The translations under genes and the position numbers were made by a program. The notes below the pieces were generated by a model. It was given only the letters and a program-made list of their open reading frames with translations, was not told where the DNA came from and ran no database searches. From NCBI RefSeq assembly GCF_963924675.1, contig NC_089239.1, positions 3,213,001-3,277,000 on the forward strand: DNA of 64,000 bases, given 5' to 3'. The DNA is from Phocoena phocoena. Lineage: Eukaryota; Chordata; Mammalia; Artiodactyla; Phocoenidae. Below, one piece after another: positions 5,395 through 63,568 of the stretch (within the stretch, counting starts at the first letter, position 1; every line of letters starts with the position of its first letter).

Positions 5395-5566
5395 GGGACT
5401 TCCCTGGTGGCACAGTGGTTTAGACTCCGCGTTCCCAATGCAGGGGGACGGGGTTCGATCCCTGGTCCAGGAACTAGATCCCACGTGCATGCCACAACTA
5501 AGGAGCCCTCCTGCCATAACTAAGACCCAATGCAACCAAATAAATAAATATTAAAAAAAAAAAAAA
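5395..5566 (+). mobile_element. Short tRNA-derived CHR/BOV-tA-like SINE
   Basis: The head is gacttccctggtggcacagt, with a B-box-like ggggttcgatccctggtc and a tail of (aaat)n plus A14. A perfect 18-bp target-site duplication, gaaatgaagtcacaccag, lies at 5377-5394 and 5567-5584. It interrupts the MLT1 LTR. Confidence 0.93.
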
Positions 5567-15280: not shown

Positions 15281-16039
15281 ACTATTATAGCCAAGACATG
15301 GAAGCAACCTAAGTGTCCTTTGACAGAGGAATGGATAAGGAAGATGTGGTACATGTATACAATGGAATATTACTCAGCCATAAAAAAGAATGAAATAGGG
15401 CTTCCCTGGTGGCGCAGTGGTTGAGAGTCCGCCTACCGATGCAGGGTTCGTGCCCCAGTCCGGGAAGATCCCACATGCCGCGGAGCGGCTGGGCCTGTGA
15501 GCCATGGCCGCTGAGCCTGCGCATCCGGAGCCTGTGCTCCACAATAGGAGAGGCCACAACAGTGAGAGGCCCGTGTACAGAAAAAAAAAAAAAAAAAAAA
15601 AAAGAAATAATATCATTTGCAGCAACTTGGAGGGACCTGGAGATGATCATAGTAAGTGAAGTCAGTCAGAGAAAGACAAATGTCATATGATATCACTTAT
15701 ATGTGGGATCTAAAATATGATACAAATGAACTTAGTTATAAAACAGAAACAGACGCACAGACATAGAAATCAAACTTATAGTTACCAAAGGGGAAAGGAG
15801 GTGAGGGATAATTTAGGAGATTGGTATTAGCAGATACAAACTACTATATATAAAATAAGCAAGGTCCTACTGTATCGCACAGGAAACTATATTCAATATC
15901 CGGTAATAAACCATAATGGAAAAGACTCTGATAAAGAATATATATATATATATATGTAACCGAATCACTTTGCTGTACACCTAAAACTAACACAACATTG
16001 TAAATCAACTATACTTCAATTTAAAAAATAAAATAAAAT
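15281..16039 (+). mobile_element. 5'-truncated L1 3' end carrying a SINE
   Basis: It starts in the last part of ORF2 (agccaagacatggaagcaac) and runs to tcaactatacttcaattt and an A-rich tail. The 14-bp target-site duplication aaattaagagctgc (15267-15280) and aaattaagggctgc (16040-16053) has one mismatch. A (TA)n stretch lies at 15940-15956. Confidence 0.95.
15398..15603 (+). mobile_element. CHR-2-type SINE nested in L1
   Basis: It has a complete head and body with a long A-tail (about 15582-15603). It sits in the L1 sequence between gaatgaaata and gaaataatatc, where an uninterrupted L1 reads gaatgaaataat. The target-site duplication is therefore at least gaaata. Confidence 0.95.
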
Positions 16040-31721: not shown

Positions 31722-33150
31722 TTTCTTTACTCTGTTAAAATAAACATAACATAAAATTTACCATATTAGACATTTTAAAGTGTACGGTTTAGTGGTATAA
31801 AATACATTCACCTTGTTATACAACCACTACCACCATCCATCCCAGAACTCTTTTCATCTTGTAAATCTGAAGCTTGTACCTATTAAAAAATAACTCCCCA
31901 TCTCCCCTCCACACAGCCCCTGGCAACCATAATTATACTTTCTGTCTTTATGATTTTGGCTAGTCTAAAACACTTCTATAAGTGGAATAGTATAGTATTT
32001 GTCTTTTTTTGTGACCGACATTTCACTTAGTATAATGTCCTCAAGTTTGATACATGCTGTGGCATTTATCAGTATTTCCTTCCTTTTTAAGGCTGAAAAA
32101 TGTTCTGTTGCAAAAATATACCACATTTTAGTAATCCACCCATCAGTTAATGGACACTGGTTGCTCCCATATTTTAGCAACTGTGAATAATGCTGCTATG
32201 AACATGGGTGCACAAATATCTCTTCAAGACCCTGCTTTCAATTCTTTTTGGTATGTACCCAGAAGTGGAATTGCTGGGTCATATGTTAATTCTGTTTTTA
32301 ATTTTTTGAGGAACCTCCACACTGTTTTCCATAATGGCTGCACCATTTTACACTCCCACCAACAGTGTACAAGGGTTCCAGTTCTCCACTCCCTCACCAA
32401 TACTTGTTGTTTTCTGTATTTTAATAGTAGTCATCCTAATGAGTGTGAGGTGGTATCTCATTGTAGTTTTGATTTGCATTCTCCTAATTATTAGTGACTT
32501 TGAGCATCTTTTCATGTATTTATTGGCCACTGGTATATCTCCTTTGAAGAAATATCTATTTAAGTCCTTTACCCATTTTTGAATCGGGTTTTTTCTTGTT
32601 GTTGTTGTTGAGTTTTAGTAGTTCTCTATATATTCTGGATATTAATCCCTTGTCAAATATATGATTTGCAAGTATTTTCTCCCATTTTGTGGGTTGTCTT
32701 TTTTACTCTGTGGATAGTGTCTTTTGATGCACAAAATTGTTTTGTTTTCATGAATCTCATTGGTCTACTGTTTCATTTGTTATCCACACTTTTGATGTCA
32801 TATGCAAGAAATCATTACCAGTGTTGCCAAACTTTTGTCTATGTTTTATTCCAGTAGTTTGTTTTAGAACTTACATTTAGGTCCCTTGATCCATTTTGAG
32901 TTAATTTTTGTATATGGTGTTAGGTAAGGGTCCAATTTCATTCTTTTGCATGTGGATATCCAATTTTCCCAGCACCATTTGTTGAAAGACTGCCCTTCCC
33001 CCATTGAATGATCTTGGCCCCCCTGTCAAACATCATTTGACTGTAGATGCAAGAGTTTATTTCTGTGTTGTATTCTATTCCACTGGTCTATATGTCTGTC
33101 TTTATGCCAATATCACACTGTTTTGATTACTGTAGCTTCGTAGTACGTTT

Positions 33151-33178
33151 TTTTTTTAATTGAAGTAAAGTTGATTTT
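33151..33178 (-). mobile_element. ~28-bp L1-tail micro-insertion
   Basis: The block is T-rich followed by taattgaagtaaagttgatt, the reversed last bases of a younger L1. It interrupts the L1MB reading gtagtaagttt. Flanks gtagtacgttt (33140-33150) and gtagtaaggttt (33179-33190) look like the duplicated target. Confidence 0.7.
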
Positions 33179-34775
33179 GTAGTAAGGTTTGAAATCAGGA
33201 AATGTGAGTCCTTCAGTTTTGTCCTTTTTCAGCATTATTTTGGCTATTCAAGGTTCCTTGAGAGTCCATATCAATTTTAGGATGGGTTTTTCTATTTTTG
33301 AAAAAAAAGTCATTAGGATTTCAATAGGGATTGCAGTGAATCTGTAGCTTACTTTGGGTAATATTGACGTTTTAACAATTTAAACTCTTTCAGTTCATGA
33401 GCATGAGATGTGTTTCCACTTATTTATGTTTTTAAAAAATTTCTTTCAGCAATATTTTGTAGTTTTCATTGTACAAGTTTTTCATCTTCCTAGTTAATTT
33501 GTAAGTATTTTATTCTTTTTAATGCTATTGTAAATGTAATTATTTTTGTAATTTACTTTGCAGATTGTTCATTGTTTGTGAATAGAAATGCAACCAATTT
33601 TTGTGTGTTGACTTTGTATTCTGCTACTTTGCTGAATTCATTTATTAGTATTAACAGCTTTTTGTGTGTGTGGAGTCTTTAGAATTTTCTATGTATAAGA
33701 TTATGTCATCTGCAAACAGATAATTTTACTTCTTCTTTTCCAGCTTGAATGCCTTTTATTTATTTTCATTTCTTGCCTAATTGCTCTGTCTATAACTTTC
33801 AGTACTATGTTGAATAGAAGTGGTGAAATCAGGCATCCTTGCCTTGCTCCTGATCTTAGAGGAAAAGCTTTCAGTCTTTCACCATTGAGCATTATGTTTG
33901 CTGTGGGTTTTTCATATACGACTTTTATTATATGGAGGTAGTTTTTTCTATTCCTATTTTCTTAAATGTTTTTATCATGAAAGGGTGTTAAGTTTTGTCA
34001 AACGATTTTTCTGCATCAGTTGAATGATCATGTAGGGTTTTCCCCTCGTTTTGTTGATGTAGTATATTACATTGATTGATTTTCATATGTTGAACGATCC
34101 TTAAATTCAAGGAATAAATCCCACTCAGTCATGATGGGATTATAATACTCCTAATATGCTGCTGAAATTTGTTTGCTAGTATTTTATTGAGGATTTTTGC
34201 ATCAATATTCATTAGGGATATTGGTCTGTAGTTTTGTTTTCTTCTATTGTCTTTGTCTGGCTTTGGTATGAGGGTTATGCTGGCCTCATAAGAATGAGTT
34301 AGGAAGTATTCCTTCCTCTGTAATTTTTTGGAAAAATTTGAGAAGGATTGCTATTAGTTGTTTATTTTAATGTTTTGGTAGAATTCACAAGTGAAGCCAT
34401 CAGGTCCAGGGCTTTTTTTGGTTGGGAGATTTTTTTTTTTAAGTACTGATTCAATCTCATTACTAAATATAAGTCTACTCAGATTGTCTATTTCTTAGTC
34501 TCAGATTTAGTCTTGGTAGATTTTCTCTTTCTAGAAATTTGTTCATTTCATCTAAGTTATCAAATGTGTTGGCAAACAATTGTTTATGGTACTCTCTTAT
34601 AGTCCTTTTTATTTCTGTGGGATCAGTAGGAATGTCCCCACTTCCATTTCTTATTTTAGTCCTTTGAGTCTTCTCTCTTTTTCTCTTAGTCCATCTAGCT
34701 AAAGGTTTGTCAATTTTGTTGATCTTTTCAAAGAACCAACTTTTGGTTTCACTGATTTTTCTCTATTGTTTTTCT

Positions 34776-36118
34776 TATTTTTAAACACATCTTTATTGGA
34801 GTATAATTGCTTTACAATGTTGTGTTAGTTTCTGCTGTATAACAAAGTGAATCAGTTATATGTGTACATATATCCCCATATCACCCCCAGCTTGCGTATC
34901 CCTCCCACCCTCCCTATCCCACCCCTCTAGGTGGTCACAAAGCACCGAGTTGATCTCCCTGTGCTATGTGCTTTCTTCCCACTAGCTATCTATTTTACAT
35001 TTGGTAGTGTATATATGTCCACGCCACTCTCTCACTTTGTCACAGCTTACCCTTCCCCCTCCCTGTGTCCTCAAGTCCATTCTCTACGTCTGCATCTTTA
35101 CTCCTGTCCTGCCCCTGGGTTCATCAGAACCACTTTTTTTATTTTTAGATTCCATATATATGTGAGCATACAGTATTTGTTTTTCTCTTTCTGACTTCAC
35201 TCTGTATGACAGACTCTAGGTCCATCCACCTCACTACACATAACTCAGTTTCGTTTCTTTTTATGGCTGAGTAATATTCCATTGCATATATGTGCCCCAT
35301 TTTCTTTATCCATTCATCTGTCGATGGACACTTAGGTTGCTTCCGTGTCCTGACTATTGTAAATAGAGCTGCAATGAACATTGTGGTACATGACTCTTTT
35401 TGAATTATGGTTTTCTCAGGGTATATGCCCAGTAGCGGGATTGTTGTGTCATATGGTAGTTCTGTTTTTAGTTTTTTAAGGAACCTCCATACTGTTCTCC
35501 ATAGTGGCTGTATCAATTTACATTCCCCCAACAGTGCAAGAAGGTTCTCTTTTCTCCACACCCTTTCCAGCATTTATTGTTTGTAGATTTTTTGATGATG
35601 GCCATTCTGACAGGTGTGAGGTGATACCTCAATGTAGTTTTGATTTGCATTTCTCTAATGATTAGTCATGTTGAGCATCTTTTCATGTGTTTGTTGGCTA
35701 TCTGTATATCTTCTCTGGAGAAATGTCTATTTAGGTCTTCTGCCCATTTTTGGGTTGGGGTGTTTGTTTTTTTTGATATTGAGCTTCATGAGGTGCTTGT
35801 GTATTTTGGAGATCAATCCTTTGTCAGTTGCTTCGTTTGCAAATATTTTCTCCCATTCTGAGGGTTGTCTTTTCGTCTTGTTTATGGTTTCCTTTGCTGT
35901 GCAAAAGCTTTTAAGTTTCATTAGATTCCATTTGTTTATTTTTGTTTTTATTTCCCTTTCTCTAGGAGGTGGGTCAAAAAGGATCTTGCTGTGATTTATG
36001 TCAGAGTGTTCTGCCTATGTTTTTCTCTAAGAGTTTTATAGTGTCTGGCCTTACATTTAGGTCTTTAATCCATTTTTAGTTTATTTTTGTGTATGGTGTT
36101 AGGAAGTGTTCTAATTTC
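34776..36118 (-). mobile_element. Younger L1 3' segment, L1 part of a U6/L1 chimera
   Basis: It runs on the minus strand from the U6 junction at 36118 through the last third of ORF2 to the L1 3' terminus at about 34776. The frame 35727-35921 carries [20 protein letters not shown], and 35145-35573 carries PLLGIYPEKTIIQKESCTTM and [11 protein letters not shown], the ORF2 C-terminus with a few disruptions. The 3'UTR wording is the cetacean type also seen at 54548-54805. It lies inside L1MB sequence that resumes on both sides. Flanking words ctattgtttttct (34763-34775) and ctgatgtttttct (36228-36240) match at 11 of 13 positions. Confidence 0.92.
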
Positions 36119-36225
36119 AAAAATAGGGAATGCTTCACGAATTTGTGTGTCATCCTCGTGCAGGGGCCATGCTAATCTTCTATGTATCGTTCCAATTTTA
36201 GTATATATGCTGCCAAATTGAGCCC
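36119..36225 (-). pseudogene. U6 snRNA pseudogene fused to L1
   Basis: The minus strand gives a complete U6-length copy of 107 nt, from gggctcaatttggcagcata at 36225 to the terminal oligo(T) at 36119. The conserved ACTAAAATTGGAACGATACA block and the AGATTAGCATGGCCCCTG block (U4/U2 pairing and ACAGAGA-proximal region) are present. By eye there are about eleven differences from canonical mammalian U6, including ACAGAG changed to ACATAG in the 5' splice-site-recognising box, so a functional product is unlikely. The sequence upstream on the minus strand is L1MB, not a snRNA PSE/TATA promoter. The 3' end is joined without a gap to L1 ORF2 sequence at 36118. This marks it as a chimeric retrocopy rather than a simple U6 pseudogene. 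Confidence 0.95.
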
Positions 36226-39200
36226 CTCTGATGTTTTTCTACTCTCTATTTTATCTACCTCTACTCTAATTGTTTGTTATTTTCTTCCTTCTGCTAGCTT
36301 TGGGTTTAGTTTGTTCTTCTTTTTCTCATTCCTTAAGTTGTAGAGTTAGGTTGTTGATTTGAGTTCTTTCTTGTTATAGCTATAAATTTCCACCTTCGCA
36401 TAACGTTTGCTGTATCATGTAAGTTTTGGCATGTTATATTTTCATTTTTACACATCTCTAAGTAGTTTCTAATTTTCCTTGTGATTTCTTCTTTGATCTA
36501 TTGGTTGTTTAAAAGTGTGTTGTTTAGTTTCCACAGTATTGTGAATTTTTCAACTTTCTTTGTGTGTTTTTTTTTTTTAATTTCTAACTTCATCCTGTTG
36601 TGGTCAGAGAAGATATCTGTCATAACTTTGTATGATATCATTTTTTGTCTACTGAGACTTAATTTGTATCCTAACATATGGTCTACCTGGAAAATGTTCC
36701 ATGTGCACTTGAGAAAAATGTATATGCTGTTGTCATTGGGTGGAATGTTCTGTATATTCTTGTTAGATCTAGTTGGTTTATTGGGAGTGAGGCATTGAAG
36801 TCTCTATTATTGTAGAACTCTCTATTTCTCCCTTCAAATTCTGTCCAGTTTTGCTTCATGTATTTTGATAGTCTGTCATTGGGTGTGCAAATGTTTATAA
36901 TTGTTATATCTTCTTGCTCTACTGAGCCTTTTATTAATATATAATGTCCTTCTTTGTCTTTTGTAACCTTATATGATTTGATGTCTACTCTGTCTGATAT
37001 TAGTATAGCCAGTCCTGCTCTCTTTTGGTTACTATTTGCATGGAATATGTTTTTCCATCCTTCCCATTTCAACCTATTTGTGTTTTGGGGTTTCAGATGA
37101 GACTCTTGTAGACAGCATATAGCTGGGTCCTGTGTTTTTATCCATTCTACCAATCTCTGTCTTTGTTGATAATAAGGGGCTTACTTCTGTCATTGTGCTG
37201 TTTGTTTTCTATATGCCCTATAGCCACTTTTCCCCTCATTTCCTGCATTACTGTCTTCTTTTGTGTTCTGTTGATATTTGTAGTTTAAATGAAATGTTTT
37301 AAATTAAATTTAATTTAATGTTTTTAATTTAATTTAAATGTTTTAAATTAAATTCAATGTTTAAATTCCTTCTTAATTTCCTTTTGTGTATACTCTATAA
37401 ACTATTTTATTTGTGGTTATCATGGAGATTACATTTAACATCCTAAAGTTATAACATTCTAATTTGAATTTATTACAGCTTAATTTCAATAACATACAAA
37501 AACTGTTCTTTTACAGCTCTGTCCCCACCCCTTTTGGTTATTGTTATTACAAAATTTCATCTGTATACATTGTATGCCAAAAAACATAAACTAATAATTC
37601 TTTTAAATGTACTGGCCTCCTAAATTATGCAGAAAACAAGATTTGGAGTTACAAACCAAAGTTACAGTAATACTAGCTATTACACTAATAATTGTTGTTT
37701 TCTTTAAATGTATTAGTCTCTTAAATCATGTAGAAAACAAAAAGTACAGTTACAAACCATTGTTACAATGATACTAGCTTCTACAATTGTCCATGTAGTT
37801 GCCTTTAATGAGGTCTTTATTTCTCTATATGGTTTCAGTTTACTGTCTAGTGTTCTTTCATTTCACTCCACAGGACTCCCTTGAGCATTTCTTGTAGGGA
37901 AGGTCTAGTGGTCATGAACTCCTTCAGCTTTTTTAAATCTGGGAATGCCTTGATTTCTCCTTCACTCTAAAGGACAGTTTTGCCAGACATAAGATTCTTG
38001 GTTGACAGTTGTTTTCTTTGAGCACTTTGAATAAATCTGCCCTCAGTCTCCTGGCCTCCAAATTTTTTGATGAGAAATCTGCAGATAATCTTATTGAGGA
38101 TCCCCTTGTATGTGACTATTCACTTACCTTGCTGCTTTCCAGATTTTCCCTTTGTCTTTTGAAAGTTTGATGATAATGAGACTGTGTGGGTCTCTTTGAC
38201 TTCATCTTACTTGGAATTCATTGAGCTTTTCGGATGTTTATATTCATGTCTTTTATCAAATTTGGGAAATTTTAAGCCATTATTTCTTCAGATATTCTCT
38301 CTGCCCCTTTCTCTTTCTCTTCTTTTACTGGGATTCCCACAATGTGTATGTTGGTCATCTTGATGGTGTCGTGTCACATGTTTCTTTAATCTTCTTTCTT
38401 TCTGTTCTTCAGCCTTGATAATTTCCATTGTCTTATCTTCAAGTTCACTGATTCTTCCTTCTGCCTGCTCAGATCTGCCTTTGAACCTCTCTAGCGAATT
38501 TTTCACTTCAGTTATTGTACTTTTCAGCTCCAGAATTGCTTTTGGGTTTCTTTTTGTGTTTCCTATATCTCTTTATTGATGTTTTCATTTTGTTCACACA
38601 TTATTTTCTTGACTTTCTCCACATCTTCCTTTAGTTCTTTGAGCATCTTTAAGACAGTTGTTTTAAAGTCTTTGTCTAGTATATCTGCCATTAGGTCTTT
38701 TTCAAGGACAGTTTCCATTGATTTTTTTCCCCTTTGTTTGAATGGGCCTTGTGATTTTGTATTAAACACTGGACATTTTAATCTAATGATGTGGTAACTC
38801 TGGAAACTGTCAGATTCTCCCCCTCCCCCAGGGTTTGATGTTTTCTGTTGTTATTTTTTGACTATTATAAGCTGTCTCTGTGCCAAGGATCAGCCTGAGT
38901 TGTAAACTTAATGTCTTCTCAGGTCTTTTCTGAGCCTTTCCCTGAGCATGCACAGTCACTTTTAAATTTTCTTTGTATATTCAGCTGTTTTTGAATGTCC
39001 TAGTCTTTAAGTTCAGGCTCCCAAAAGAGGAAAAGCAAAAAATGATGGGAGGGGGAAAGGATGGGATGACCCTTTAAATCTTCTGGCATTCACTTCAACC
39101 TGAAGGGGAAGGAACATGAACCAATGAGGGGAGGTGCGACAGCAATGGCTTCACCCTCTTTGTCTGCACCTCTGTGGTCAGCATTCAGAGCACAGGTCTC

Positions 39201-39495
39201 CAGTATTTGGGGGACAGGGTCCTTTTACCCACTCTAGCTCCCACAAGTTGTGTGCAAGCTGCACAGCCTCTTGCCATGTGTCTGGGAGTGGGGATGGGTA
39301 ACTGCTAATGAGTCAGGAGCTGAAGTTGGCTGCAATTGACTTCAATTTGCCTCCAAGCCTTCTGCCAGAAGTTGCAAGCCTTCAACAGACTCCAGAGTTC
39401 CAAAATAGTTACATCAGGTTGATTCTGCCATTGTAGTTGTTGTCTGGGCAGAGAGACAGATTCCTGGTGCTTCCTCCTCCACCATCTTCCCAAAA

Positions 39496-42110
39496 TCCTC
39501 CCTTCAGAAGCTGCATTCTGACGGGAGAAGTCAAAGCTTCAGCAGAACCTGGCCAGATTCTTTGAAACTGCCTTAAAGTAACAAAAGTATTGCTGAAAGT
39601 GAACTTCCACACACTCTGCTATCGAATGCACTGTGTGGATTTCCCTGCACACACTCAGGTATTGTCATATATGAGATAAAAAGAGTATGCCACAAAGCTT
39701 TGCTGTGACCTTCCAGGCCTCCTCACTGAGCGAATGATGAGAGCCTTAGTCGTTAAGCAAAGAGCCCTGGTTCCAATTTGACCTGATTCTCAGCTTCCCA
39801 CACTGTCCATCTGCTGCTAATGTGGCTCCTTATTGCCTGTCCTGGGAAGGGCTTCTCCCTCTGTGCAGAACCATAGCTCTGCTCCTCCCCAGAGGAGGGA
39901 CAACTACAACCTTCCTTTGGATGATGGGCTAACTTTCTGAGTGAAATGCAATGAAAAGCTGAAAGTAGTGCCCTCCCCTCATGCCCGCTATGTACTTACC
40001 TTTGACCTGGTCGGAGTCCAACAGGCTATAGTCTCGTTCTATGGTTAAATGTCTTTATTCTGCTCCCCAATGACACTGTACATAGTCTGTGTCCTCCAGC
40101 ATCATCTCCTAATAAAGCACAAGCCCATGTCCCAATAATTCTCCACATAGCACCAATCTCACAGCACCTATGTAAACAGCTGCTCAACACAGTTAAAAAA
40201 GATTTTTTCAATCAGAAAAGAAAAACATGCTCATTAGAAGAAATGTGAGAAATACATAAAAGGAGAAAAAGGGTATCACTATTAATTTCACCACTGTTAA
40301 CAGTTGAAATACTGTATTAAGTTTAAAGATTCAGAAAAATATGGAGTAATTAAGTCACTCCCTAAAATATCACATGTTAATATTTTGTCATAAAAGGTTT
40401 GCAGGGACCTTTAATTTTATAAAAGAAATGGAAGATGGCAAATAAAGTTGAGGTGGCTTTTTTCCTTCCCGGGTCATATTCCCAGCCCTCCCCAGAGGTA
40501 ACTACTCTCATGGAGGCAGGGGAGGGGTGGGGAGGGAGGAAAGAAGGAGAAAGGTAAGTACAGGAGTCCTACACAGACAGCCAATGAGGAAGCCAAGCTC
40601 TGGGCAGTCTCTTGGCAGCACGCTCAGCCAAGGCTGCTCCAAAAGAAGCCCAGGTACCTCGACACTGGGCTCAGGGTGTCCATCCTGAAGGCCAGGCCTT
40701 GAGTCAAAGCGTGGAATTCCATTTCCCATTTAGCAGTGCTTACGGCTGTTTCCCAGAGCTTGGGATACAAGCCATTTGGGGAACAAAAGGGAGATTTGGG
40801 TCAGGGCTCAGACCACCAGGGAGCTCCCAAGCTGGCTCTGCTCCTGGTTCAAGGGTAGCTTGCATCCAGGACCCATGCCAGGTCTCTGTGGGGTCGTTTC
40901 CATGGGCCTCAATAGACCCACATCAGAATTCCAGAGCAGAGACGCGATCCCCCAAACAGAAAGTGACCTTCTGAACAGAATGTGTCCACTTCTGTGTGAG
41001 CGTTCCCATGTCTTCCCCCATCCCCTGCCGCATGGAAGCTCCTCCGTGACTCCATCACCTTGCTCCCTGATGGGGGACGCACCTGGGAGCCTGGTCTCTC
41101 CTGTAGGCATCAGAGGGGAGGGGCGTTGCCTGGAAACCTGGTGGCGCCTGCTCCTCCTTAGAGGAAACAGACTGTGAGGGACCATGGGGCCACCGCATTC
41201 TTTTTCTGGGCCGTCTTGTCCGGCTCCAATTTGTGACGCTTCCACTTATGAAATAGGGCAGAGCAGCCCCCGCACTCGGCCTCCGTGGAGCACGGTGGTG
41301 AGCGGCTCAGCACTGCCTTTGCCAAATGCCCAGTGTTTTGAAAAAAATCAAGTTCCTTGTAGCTGGCAGCTGGTATGTTATTATCCCCCGGGGAGGGTGT
41401 CAAGAGACCACATTTCTTAGTATGGAATTATCCTCTAATTAAAATTTAAACCAGTTTAGTGAGAAAGACACCTGAAGCCTCAGACTCTCCAAAGCTTAAG
41501 AACCCATATTTTACTCCAGACCATGTGATTTGCCTAGGATCATGAGATGAATAAAAGTCACAATGTCTATGGGGCTGCCAATGAATTCCTTTACAATTTG
41601 GTCTTTTCAAGTGAAAAACTGAAATGTAAAATATATTACTATTAAAATGTATCTTTTTCATGGATGAGGCACTAAAGATTGCTTATATGATAAACAATAT
41701 TTTTATAATAATTTTAGATAGCACTGTACTGTTTTCAAATTGAATGCACGTGATCCATTTACTTGTTTTGATTTTCGGCCTCTGCTGCCTGCTTATAATA
41801 GAAGCAAACTCCCTGGCAGCCCCTAGTTTAATCTCCAGTGTCCTGTCCTTTGTGGACCTGCTTCTGGAGCTGCTCTTCTTTTCCAAAAGAGAAGAGAGCT
41901 TTCTTTCACAGCTCTGAAGCATAGTTTCCAGTGGTAGTAGATTGAACCATGTAAAATTGCCATTTTTGTAAGTCAGAAACAGTGGGTTACTGGTAACTTC
42001 ATATGGTCCAACCTAATATTTTGGTCTAAACGAAATCTGTGAGCAAAAATGCATGCCATTCACTAAAAGTTCACCTTGTTTGAATCCTCCTTTGATGGAT
42101 TTCAAGAAAG
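39496..42110. other. Unique sequence, no gene recognised
   Basis: 40210-40320 (catgctcattagaagaaatg and following) has the look of a worn LINE-age repeat. 40480-41420 is GC-richer, with overlapping frames on both strands (up to 145 codons at 40808-41245, minus) and no recognisable domain. 41420-41990 is AT-rich without features. Confidence 0.35.
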
Positions 42111-45042: not shown

Positions 45043-48000
45043 CCTTTAATTAATAAACTTTATTTTTTTTAATAAACTTTATTTTTTAGAGCGATTTTAG
45101 GTCCACAGCAAACTCGAGCAGAAATTATAGAGAGTTCCTATATACACCACATCCACACTCACTCAACCTCCTCCACTATCTACGTCTTGAACTAGGGTGG
45201 TATGTGCGTAACAACCAATGAACCTACGTAGACGCATCATTATCATCCAAGGTCCATAACTTACATTAGGGTTTACTCTTGGTGCTGTACGTTGTATGGA
45301 TCTTGACAAATGTAAATGACATGCATCCACCATTGTAGTAACATACAGAATAGTTTCTCTGTCCTAAAAATCCTCTGTGCTCTGCTAATTCATTCCTCTG
45401 CTCCCCTTCACTCCTGGCAACCACTGATCTTTTTACTGTCTACATAGTTTTGTCTTTTCCAGAATGTCATATAGTTGGAATCATACAGTTTGTAGACTTT
45501 TCAGATTGGCTTCTTTCACTTAGTAATATGCATTTAAGTTTCCTGCATGTCTTTTCATGACTTGACAGCTCATTTCTTTTTAGCCTTGAATAATACTCCG
45601 TTGTCTGGGTGTACCACAGTTTGTTTATCCAGTCCCCTACTGAAGGACATCTTGGCTGCTTCCAAGTTTTGGCACTTATGAATAAAGCTGCTATAAACAT
45701 CCATGTGAAGGTTTTCATGTGGACGTAAGTTTTCAATCCATTAGGATAAATACCAAGGGGTGCCACTGTTGGATTACATGATAAGAGTATGTTTAGTTTT
45801 ATAAGAAACTGCCAAACTGTCCTCCAAAGAGGCTGTACCATGTTGCATTTCCACCAGCAGTGAACAGGAGTTCCTGTCATTCAACGTCTTTGCCAGCATT
45901 TGGTGTCTTTTGGATTTTGGCCATTATAACAGTTTTATAGTGGTAACTCACTGTCTTTTTAATTTGTAATTCCCTAATGACATATGATGTTGAACATCTT
46001 TTTATGTGCTTACTTGCCATCTGTATATCTTCTTTAGTGGAGGTGTCTGTTCAGGTCTTTTGCCCATTTTTAAATCGGGTTGTTTGTTTTCTTATTGTTG
46101 AGTGTTAAGAGTTCTTTGTATATTTTGGAGAGCAGTCCTTTATTAGATGTGTCATTTGCATATATTTTCTTTTAGTTTGTGGCTTGTCTTATTCTCTTAA
46201 CAGTGTCTTTCACAGAGCAGAAGTTTTTAACTTTAATGATGTCCAGCTTATCAATTACTTCTTTCATAAATCATGTCTTTGGTGTTGTCTCTAAAAAGTC
46301 ATCACCATACCCAAGGTCATTGGGTTTTCTCCTATGGTATGTCTACGAGTTTTACAGTTTTGTATGATACATTTAGGGCTATGCTCCATTATGAGTTAAT
46401 TTTTGTGAAGGGTGTGTCCATTTGTTCCAGCACCATTTGTTGAAGAGACTATATTTGCTTCGTTGTAATGCCTTGCTTCTTCATCAGACCAGTTGACCAT
46501 ATTTATGTGAGTCTACTTCTGGGCTGCTGTTCTGTGCTATTGATTTATTTGCTTATTCTTTCACCAATAATCACACTGTCTTGAGTACTGAAGCTTTATA
46601 GTAAAACTTAAAATAATGTAATGTCAGTCTGACTTTGTTGTTCTTCTTCAATATTGAGTTGGCTCTTCTGGGGCTTTTGTCTCTCTCTATAAACTTTAGA
46701 ATCAGTTTGTCAATATCCACAAAATAACTTGCTGGAACTTTGATTGGGGTTGCACTGAATCTGTAGATCAAATTGGAAGAACTGATATCTTGACAACATT
46801 GAGTTTTCCTATCCATGAACACAGAATATCTCTCTGTTTATTTCTAGTTCATTTTTGATATCTTTCATCAGAGTTTTGTAGTTTTCCTCAAATAGATCTT
46901 GAATATATTTTGTTAGATTTATCCCTAAAATTTTGTTTTTAGGGTGCTAATGTAAATGGTAATGTGCTTTAATTTCAAATTCCACTTGTTCGTTGTTGGT
47001 ATGTAGGAAAGCGCTTGGTTTTTGTACAGTTACCCTGTATCCTGCAACCTCACTATAATCACTTATTAGTTCCAGGAGTTTTTTGTTGATTCTTCCACAT
47101 TGTTTACGTAGACGATCATGTCATCTGTGAACAAAGACACTTTAATTTCTTCCTTCTCAATCTGCATACCTTTTATTTTCCATTTCTTGTCTTATTGCTT
47201 AGCTAGGATTTCCAGTATGATGTTTAAAAAGCAGTGATACGAGGGGATGTCTTTGCCTTATTCCTGATCTTAGTGGGAAAGCTTTGAATCTCTCACCATC
47301 AAGTATGATGTTAGCTGTTGGTTCTTTGTAGATAATTTTTATCAAGCCAAGGCAGTTCCCCTCTATTCCTAGTTTACTGAGAGTTTTTTTTTTTTATCAT
47401 GAATGGGAATGGATTTTGTTAAATGCTTTTTTGCATTTATTGATATGATCATGTGATTTTTCTTTTATAGCCATGTGATGGTTTTGGTATTAGGGTAATT
47501 CTGGCCTCATAGAATACGTTAGGAAATATTTCCTCTGCTTCTGTCCTCTGAAAGAGATTGTAAGCAATTAGTATAATTTATTCCTTAAATGTGTGGTAGA
47601 ATTCACCAGTGAACCCATCTGGATCTGGTGCTTTCTGTTTTGGAAGATCATTAATTATTGATTTGATTTCCTTAATAGACATAGGCCTATCAGGTGGCCT
47701 GTTTCTTCTGCGTGAGTTTTGGCAGATTGTGTCTTTCAAGGAGTTGGTCCGTTTCATCTAGGTTATCAAATTTGTAGGCACAGAGTTATTCATAATATTC
47801 CTTTGTTATTCTTTTTAATGTCCATGAAATCTTTAGTAATGTCTCCTCTTTTCTTTCAGTTATTAATAATTTGTGTCCTCACATTTTTTCTTAGTTAGCC
47901 TGGCAAGAAGTTTTTCAACTTTATTGATCTTTCCAAAGAACCAGCTTTAGGTTTTATTGATTTTCTCTCTTGATTTCCTGTTTTGAATTTCATTAATTTC

Positions 48001-54495: not shown

Positions 54496-54547
54496 ATGAA
54501 TTAAATTTAAGAAACAAACGGAAACAATCAAAAGGGTGTGTATAGAA

Positions 54548-54805
54548 GTGAGAGAGTGGCATGGACATATATACACTACCAAATGTAAAATAGATAGCTA
54601 GTCGGAAGCAGCCGCATAGCACAGGGAGATCAGCTCAGTGCTTTGTGACCACCTAGAGGGGTGGGATAGGGAGGGTGGGAGGGGGATGCAAGAGGGAGGG
54701 GATATGGGGATATATGTATATGTATAGCTGATTCACCTTGCTATACAGCAGAAACTAACACACAATTGTAAAGCAATCATACTCCAATAAAGATGTTTTT
54801 TTAAA
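54548..54805 (+). mobile_element. Young L1 3' end
   Basis: The wording gtggcatggacatatataca through cactccaataaagatg, the same subfamily 3'UTR as the U6-linked L1. A perfect 17-bp target-site duplication, aaagggtgtgtatagaa, lies at 54531-54547 and 54806-54822. Confidence 0.97.
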
Positions 54806-54822
54806 AAAGGGTGTGTATAGAA

Positions 54823-59998: not shown

Positions 59999-60713
59999 AA
60001 AAATTTTATTGGAGTCTAATTGATTTTCAATATTGTGTTAGTTTCAGGTGTACAGAAAAGTGATTCAGTTATGCATATACATATACTCAGTCCTTTTCAG
60101 ATTATTTTCCCATATAGGTTGTTACAGAATATGGAGTAGGGTTCACTGTGCTATACAGTAGGTCCTTGTCAGTTATCTATTTTACATATAGTAGTGTGTA
60201 TATGTCAATCCCAAACTCCTAATTTATCCCTCCCCCTCACATTTTCCCCTTGGTAACCATAAGTTTGTTTCTGAAATCTGTGAGTCTATTTCTGTTTTGT
60301 AAATAAGTTCATTTATATATATATATTTTTTTTAATATAAATTTATTTATTTATTTTTGGCTGTGTTGGGTCTTCATTGCTGTGTGCGGGCTTTCTCTAG
60401 TTGTGGCGAGCAGGGGCTACTCTTCATTGCGGTGTGTGGGCTTCTCATCACCACGGCTTCTTTTGTTGTGGAGCATGGGCTCTAGGCGCGTGGGCTTCAG
60501 TAGTTGTAGCACGTGGGCTCAGTAGTTGTAGCTCGTGGGCTCTAGGGTGCAGGCTCAGTAGTTACAGCGTACGGGCTTAGTTGCTCCCCACAAGCGGGAT
60601 CTTCCCGGACCAGGGCTCGAACCTGTGGCTCCTCCATTGGCACCGGATTCTTAACCACTGCGCCACCAGGGAAGCCCTCACTTATATTAATTTTTTTATT
60701 AGATTCCACATAT
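59999..60713 (-). mobile_element. L1 3' end interrupted by a SINE
   Basis: The reversed tail at 59999 is followed by a 3'UTR (ggagtctaattgattttcaa to gtaaataagttcatttatat) that resumes after the SINE as ttagattccacatatg. Flanks aaaactccatttaattt (from 59982) and aaaactccattaatttt (from 60716) look like the target-site duplication. Confidence 0.9.
60330..60678 (-). mobile_element. CHR-1-like SINE nested in L1
   Basis: Full-length in reverse, with three agtagtt-g-gc units in its body. The right end is ccaccagggaagccc. Confidence 0.93.
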
Positions 60714-63277: not shown

Positions 63278-63568
63278 AAAATATTTATTTATTTATTTAT
63301 TATTTTTGGCTGTGTTGGCTCTTCGTTTCTGTGCGAGGGCTTTCTCTAGTTGCGGTGAGTGGGGGCCACTTTTCATCGCGGTGCGCTTGCCTCTCACTGT
63401 CGCGGCCTCTCTTGTTGCGGAGCACAAGCTCCAGACACACAGGCTCAGGAGTTGTGGCTCACGGGCCTAGTTGCTCCGTGGCATGTGGGATCTTCCCAGA
63501 CCAGGGCTCGAACCCGTGTCCCCTGCATTGGCAGGCAGATTCTCAACCACTGCGCCACAAGGGAAGCC
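63278..63568 (-). mobile_element. CHR-type SINE, reverse orientation
   Basis: A full-length copy with an (attt)n left end. A perfect 13-bp target-site duplication, ctgtctctaattt, lies at 63265-63277 and 63569-63581. The closest relative in the window is the SINE at 58637-58940. Confidence 0.96.

Follow-up and report, generated by a model that had tools for sequence, protein, structure and literature searches.

Copies of U6 snRNA joined to L1 were reported early (Buzdin 2003 and Garcia-Perez 2007, as cited in PMC4476161), and PMC13174262 (Law and Burns 2026) gives 180 U6/L1 loci in human, in which the chimeric U6 is in sense orientation in 98.3% and typically full-length, while the L1 is often 5'-truncated. 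In Table 2 of PMC4476161 (Doucet et al. 2015), retrotransposon-associated U6 copies are listed for dolphin (10/31), pig (20/39), cow (54/122) and sheep (100/149), where the denominators are those analysed U6 copies whose identity to the reference is at least 97.5%, and where it is retrotransposon association that is counted, the U6-then-L1 order not being broken out. As to how the two parts become joined, PMC13174262 names two routes, a template switch or a ligation of the RNAs ahead of TPRT, with RtcB given in a figure legend, and the review PMC13247085 describes ligation as a pro-transposon reaction. Here we describe a locus of this kind within a 64-kb window, by which we mean the whole stretch of DNA that was analysed.

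A full-length U6 copy abuts a 5'-truncated L1

A full-length U6 snRNA retrocopy, ending in TTTTT, lies at 36119..36225 on the minus strand, and is the single match to Rfam RF00026 in the 64-kb window at Rfam gathering scores (98.4 bits, model positions 1-105). Against the mature U6 sequence the copy aligns without gaps, both being 107 nt long, and differs by 11 substitutions, of which 5 fall at CpG; it is in sense orientation relative to the L1 piece that follows it, both being on the minus strand. One substitution, G44 at position 44, falls in the ACAGAGA box, and with 11 substitutions including this one the copy lacks the intact core found in a functional U6 gene. The 100 nt upstream of the copy are host L1 sequence, in which no PSE-like element was seen by eye when compared with the consensus. 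This host sequence does contain an A/T-rich, TATA-like ATAAAATA at 36247-36254, which extends from about 29 to about 22 bases ahead of the U6 copy, the usual TATA-box distance, and is probably of chance origin.

The L1 piece (34776..36118, minus strand) comprises the 3' end of ORF2, the 3' UTR, an AATAAA at 34792-34797 and an A-rich tail that is short and decayed. Reading from 36118, its match to human LINE-1 ORF2p starts at about residue 948 (8sxt, E 1.5e-12), and the next ORF2 fragment matches human ORF2p residues 990-1059; the ORF is disrupted by stop codons and frame changes, and Pfam at E 0.01 returned no family for two ORF2 pieces. The 3' UTR recurs at 54546-54809 with 89% identity, and a similar L1 3' end occurs six more times in the window, at 15976, 29152 and 54744 on the plus strand and at 60052, 30218 and 8691 on the minus strand, with 2-6 mismatches in 33. 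Exact-pattern searches of a viral contig collection for the L1 3' end, for U6 and for the L1 bases at the junction gave 0 matches, as did a search of a genome contig collection with the exact junction pattern, so that no L1 relative from outside the window was obtained. Given the 11 substitutions in U6, one of them in the ACAGAGA box, and the broken ORF2 piece, the chimeric copy would seem to have no function, as far as can be seen from its letters.

At the junction (36118..36119, minus strand) the 3' end of U6 directly abuts the truncated L1, with neither A-tail nor filler between them. The older L1 that hosts the insert reads AAT/GAAATT at the equivalent position. Since a T precedes GAAATT there, U6 and L1 have one base in common, and the joint could lie on either side of that T. 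The original prediction of a complete 107-nt U6-like sequence, its oligo(T) ending at 36119, is borne out by the Rfam match and the comparison with mature U6, and the ORF2p matches and 3' end likewise bear out its junction to same-strand (minus) L1 ORF2 sequence continuing to 34776. The base-to-base joint predicted at 36118/36119 is indeed direct and free of filler, but its exact point can be shifted by that one T.

Ligation and template switching as possible routes to the junction

PMC4476161 quotes a formula for the junction overlap expected by chance, P(n)=(n+1)p^n(1-p)^2, by which at least one shared base is expected in 44% of junctions; for this reason an overlap of 1 nt cannot separate ligation from template switching. 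We lean slightly towards a link between U6 and L1 that a ligase (RTCB) formed between the RNAs ahead of insertion. In the mechanism we propose, a U6 snRNA still carrying its U tail would have become attached to an L1 RNA fragment at that fragment's 5' end, which lies late in ORF2, and the joint RNA (or U6 reached via a template switch) would have been reverse-transcribed from the L1 tail. Reverse transcription would have begun at a nicked, T-rich site in the older L1, and the insertion would have left a duplication of 15 bp.

Template switching competes with ligation on the joining step only, the single insertion being common to both models. It has ORF2p start on L1 RNA at the nick, halt in ORF2, jump onto U6 at its 3' end and copy it through to its 5' end, a course of events to which we assign a little short of an even chance. 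This model is favoured in PMC4476161, whereas PMC13174262 and PMC13247085 name the competing ligation model; template switching during TPRT, taken in the original prediction as the established mechanism, is accordingly a published model, but one of two. The locus itself agrees with a switch in its U6-then-L1 order on one strand and in a U6 that is complete through its 5' end, and it holds no decisive counter-evidence, the overlap at the junction being just 1 nt. We regard ligation before insertion as slightly likelier than template switching because base pairing is not required where a complete U tail is set on an internal L1 break, and because experiments by Moldovan et al. reportedly weigh toward ligation of U6 to L1 RNA.

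The chimeric copy is nested in an older L1

On both sides of the insert an older host L1 continues in register and on the same strand. Its 3' part (32022..34760, minus strand) holds ORF2 from about residue 357 on, with a match to human ORF2p residues 357-443 directly adjoining the 3' side of the insert, and with continuity over 32941-33175 inferred from spacing; copies related to this part are found at 46595-47979 and elsewhere in the window. Its 5' part (36241..37500, minus strand, the 5' limit being provisional) holds the ORF2 endonuclease region, from which a 165-aa piece matches the human L1 endonuclease. Since the insert is nested inside the host L1, it is younger than the host.

A second old L1 (45570-48474), which shares the strand of the host L1, is uninterrupted at the insertion point and provides an empty site, one that is paralogous and within the window rather than the orthologous locus. 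When the flanks and one copy of the duplication described below are aligned with this uninterrupted L1 at about 47.7-48.3 kb, no gap is left at the insertion point, and a 1-base gap lies a few bases outside the duplication. The alignment score is 279 if the left copy is retained and 275 if the right one is, against 261 if both are.

Other repeats are also present. In or beside the 5' part of the host L1 there are self-matches, one inverted (37298-37365, 77%) and one a direct repeat of about 120 bases (37587-37808, 73%). Across the window, a 34-base CHR-type SINE head, used without a shuffled control, gave twelve matches with 2-6 mismatches, at 5402, 11693, 15404, 28435, 55274 and 58286 on the plus strand and at 63563, 60671, 58933, 53449, 4837 and 4399 on the minus strand, as would fit a whale or a close relative of whales.

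A single target-site duplication encloses U6 and L1

The outer borders of the block carry a 15-bp target-site duplication, with its 5' copy at 36226..36240 and its 3' copy at 34761..34775 (minus strand). The two copies are identical at 13/15 positions, with two mismatches, and the best match within a slack of 4 bases per side falls on the exact outer borders. In 19,967 trials over the whole window, random pairs of borders given equal slack reached at least 13/15 4 times, and in 19,703 trials within 32000-39500 they did so 14 times. The duplication was detected by direct border-to-border comparison and had been missed by a repeat search with a minimum length of 11. The nick site is T-rich, reading TTTTTCT/AC by eye, and is only a loose fit to the L1 endonuclease consensus.

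This duplication bears on whether U6 and L1 arrived by two separate insertions, U6 first and L1 then entering its 3' edge, or in the reverse order. Insertion of U6 or L1 by itself is known (PMC4476161 describes groups of U6 copies that lack repeats). With the same 15-base comparison and 4-base slack, only 6/15 was found around the L1 piece alone and 8/15 around U6 alone, values typical of random pairs. Because the repeat stands only at the outer borders, a single duplication encloses U6 and L1 together.

The decay of the two parts is compatible with this. Outside CpG, the U6 copy differs from U6 at 4/89 positions in a local alignment, which drops a substitution at position 2 and sets aside one at position 69 that creates a CpG in the copy; counting every non-CpG substitution gives 6/93, or 6.5%. 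The L1 3' part differs from the 54.5-kb copy at 20/250 non-CpG positions, which amounts to about 4% for each copy on the assumption that the two are equally old, while the L1 piece differs from two other relatives in the window at 87/557 and 64/483 and from the host L1 at 180/826. The age comparison hinges on which copy is chosen as the sister, since the two other relatives differ more; on these few sites, the U6 and L1 parts would appear compatible with one age. With no A-tail between U6 and L1, one enclosing duplication and compatible decay, we reject two separate insertions as very improbable.

An assembly join at the U6/L1 junction is the least credible alternative and very improbable, for a join would not yield matching duplications at the far sides of both parts, nor a surrounding host L1 that is in register on either side. 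Gene conversion with the host L1, or duplication within it, was likewise ruled out because the insert starts at ORF2 residue 948 and the break in the host lies just ahead of residue 357.

The structure of the locus, its borders and its nesting were observed directly. We conclude that it is almost certainly one dead U6/L1 chimeric retrocopy, which the L1 machinery produced in one event, given the direct junction, the outer-only duplication, the empty-site alignment, the start at residue 948 against a host break at 357, and the compatible decay. On this central point the original prediction, that one event placed a chimeric U6/L1 retrocopy inside an older L1, is well supported by junction, duplication and nesting. 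Its claim that the block interrupts an older L1, of putative L1MB type, agrees with the ORF2p 357-443 and endonuclease matches on the flanks, and the target-site repeats it placed around the block do stand at both outer borders, but with a length of 15 bp rather than 13.

Comparison with known U6/L1 chimeras

The locus is real but ordinary, a further example of a copying accident long known in mammals. That the process acted in this cetartiodactyl lineage, as had been proposed from the locus, is consistent with published work but is not new, since Table 2 of PMC4476161 already holds counts for dolphin, cow, sheep and pig. The present copy would fall outside those 2015 counts because it is too decayed for their identity cut-off of at least 97.5%.

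Taken alone, the locus matters little, being another known by-product of L1, although it can be used as a presence/absence marker and supplies one data point for a survey of junctions on ligation versus template switching. We think it unlikely that it belongs to a large set of cetacean U6/L1 joints with L1 break points which, once collected, would reveal preferred RNA cleavage sites and thereby separate ligation from template switching.

Among described systems, the U6 processed pseudogenes of the poly(A) and 3'-truncated groups in PMC4476161 are likewise L1-made U6 copies with duplications, but as described there they have no L1 piece, whereas here L1 follows the U tail. The closer likeness is to the U6/L1 chimeric pseudogenes of PMC4476161 and PMC13174262, which share with this locus a complete sense U6 on the 5' side, a truncated L1 on the 3' side, one target-site duplication and a direct junction at the U tail. 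The copy described here is of the same kind, and differs in being decayed (11/107) and in lying inside an older L1.
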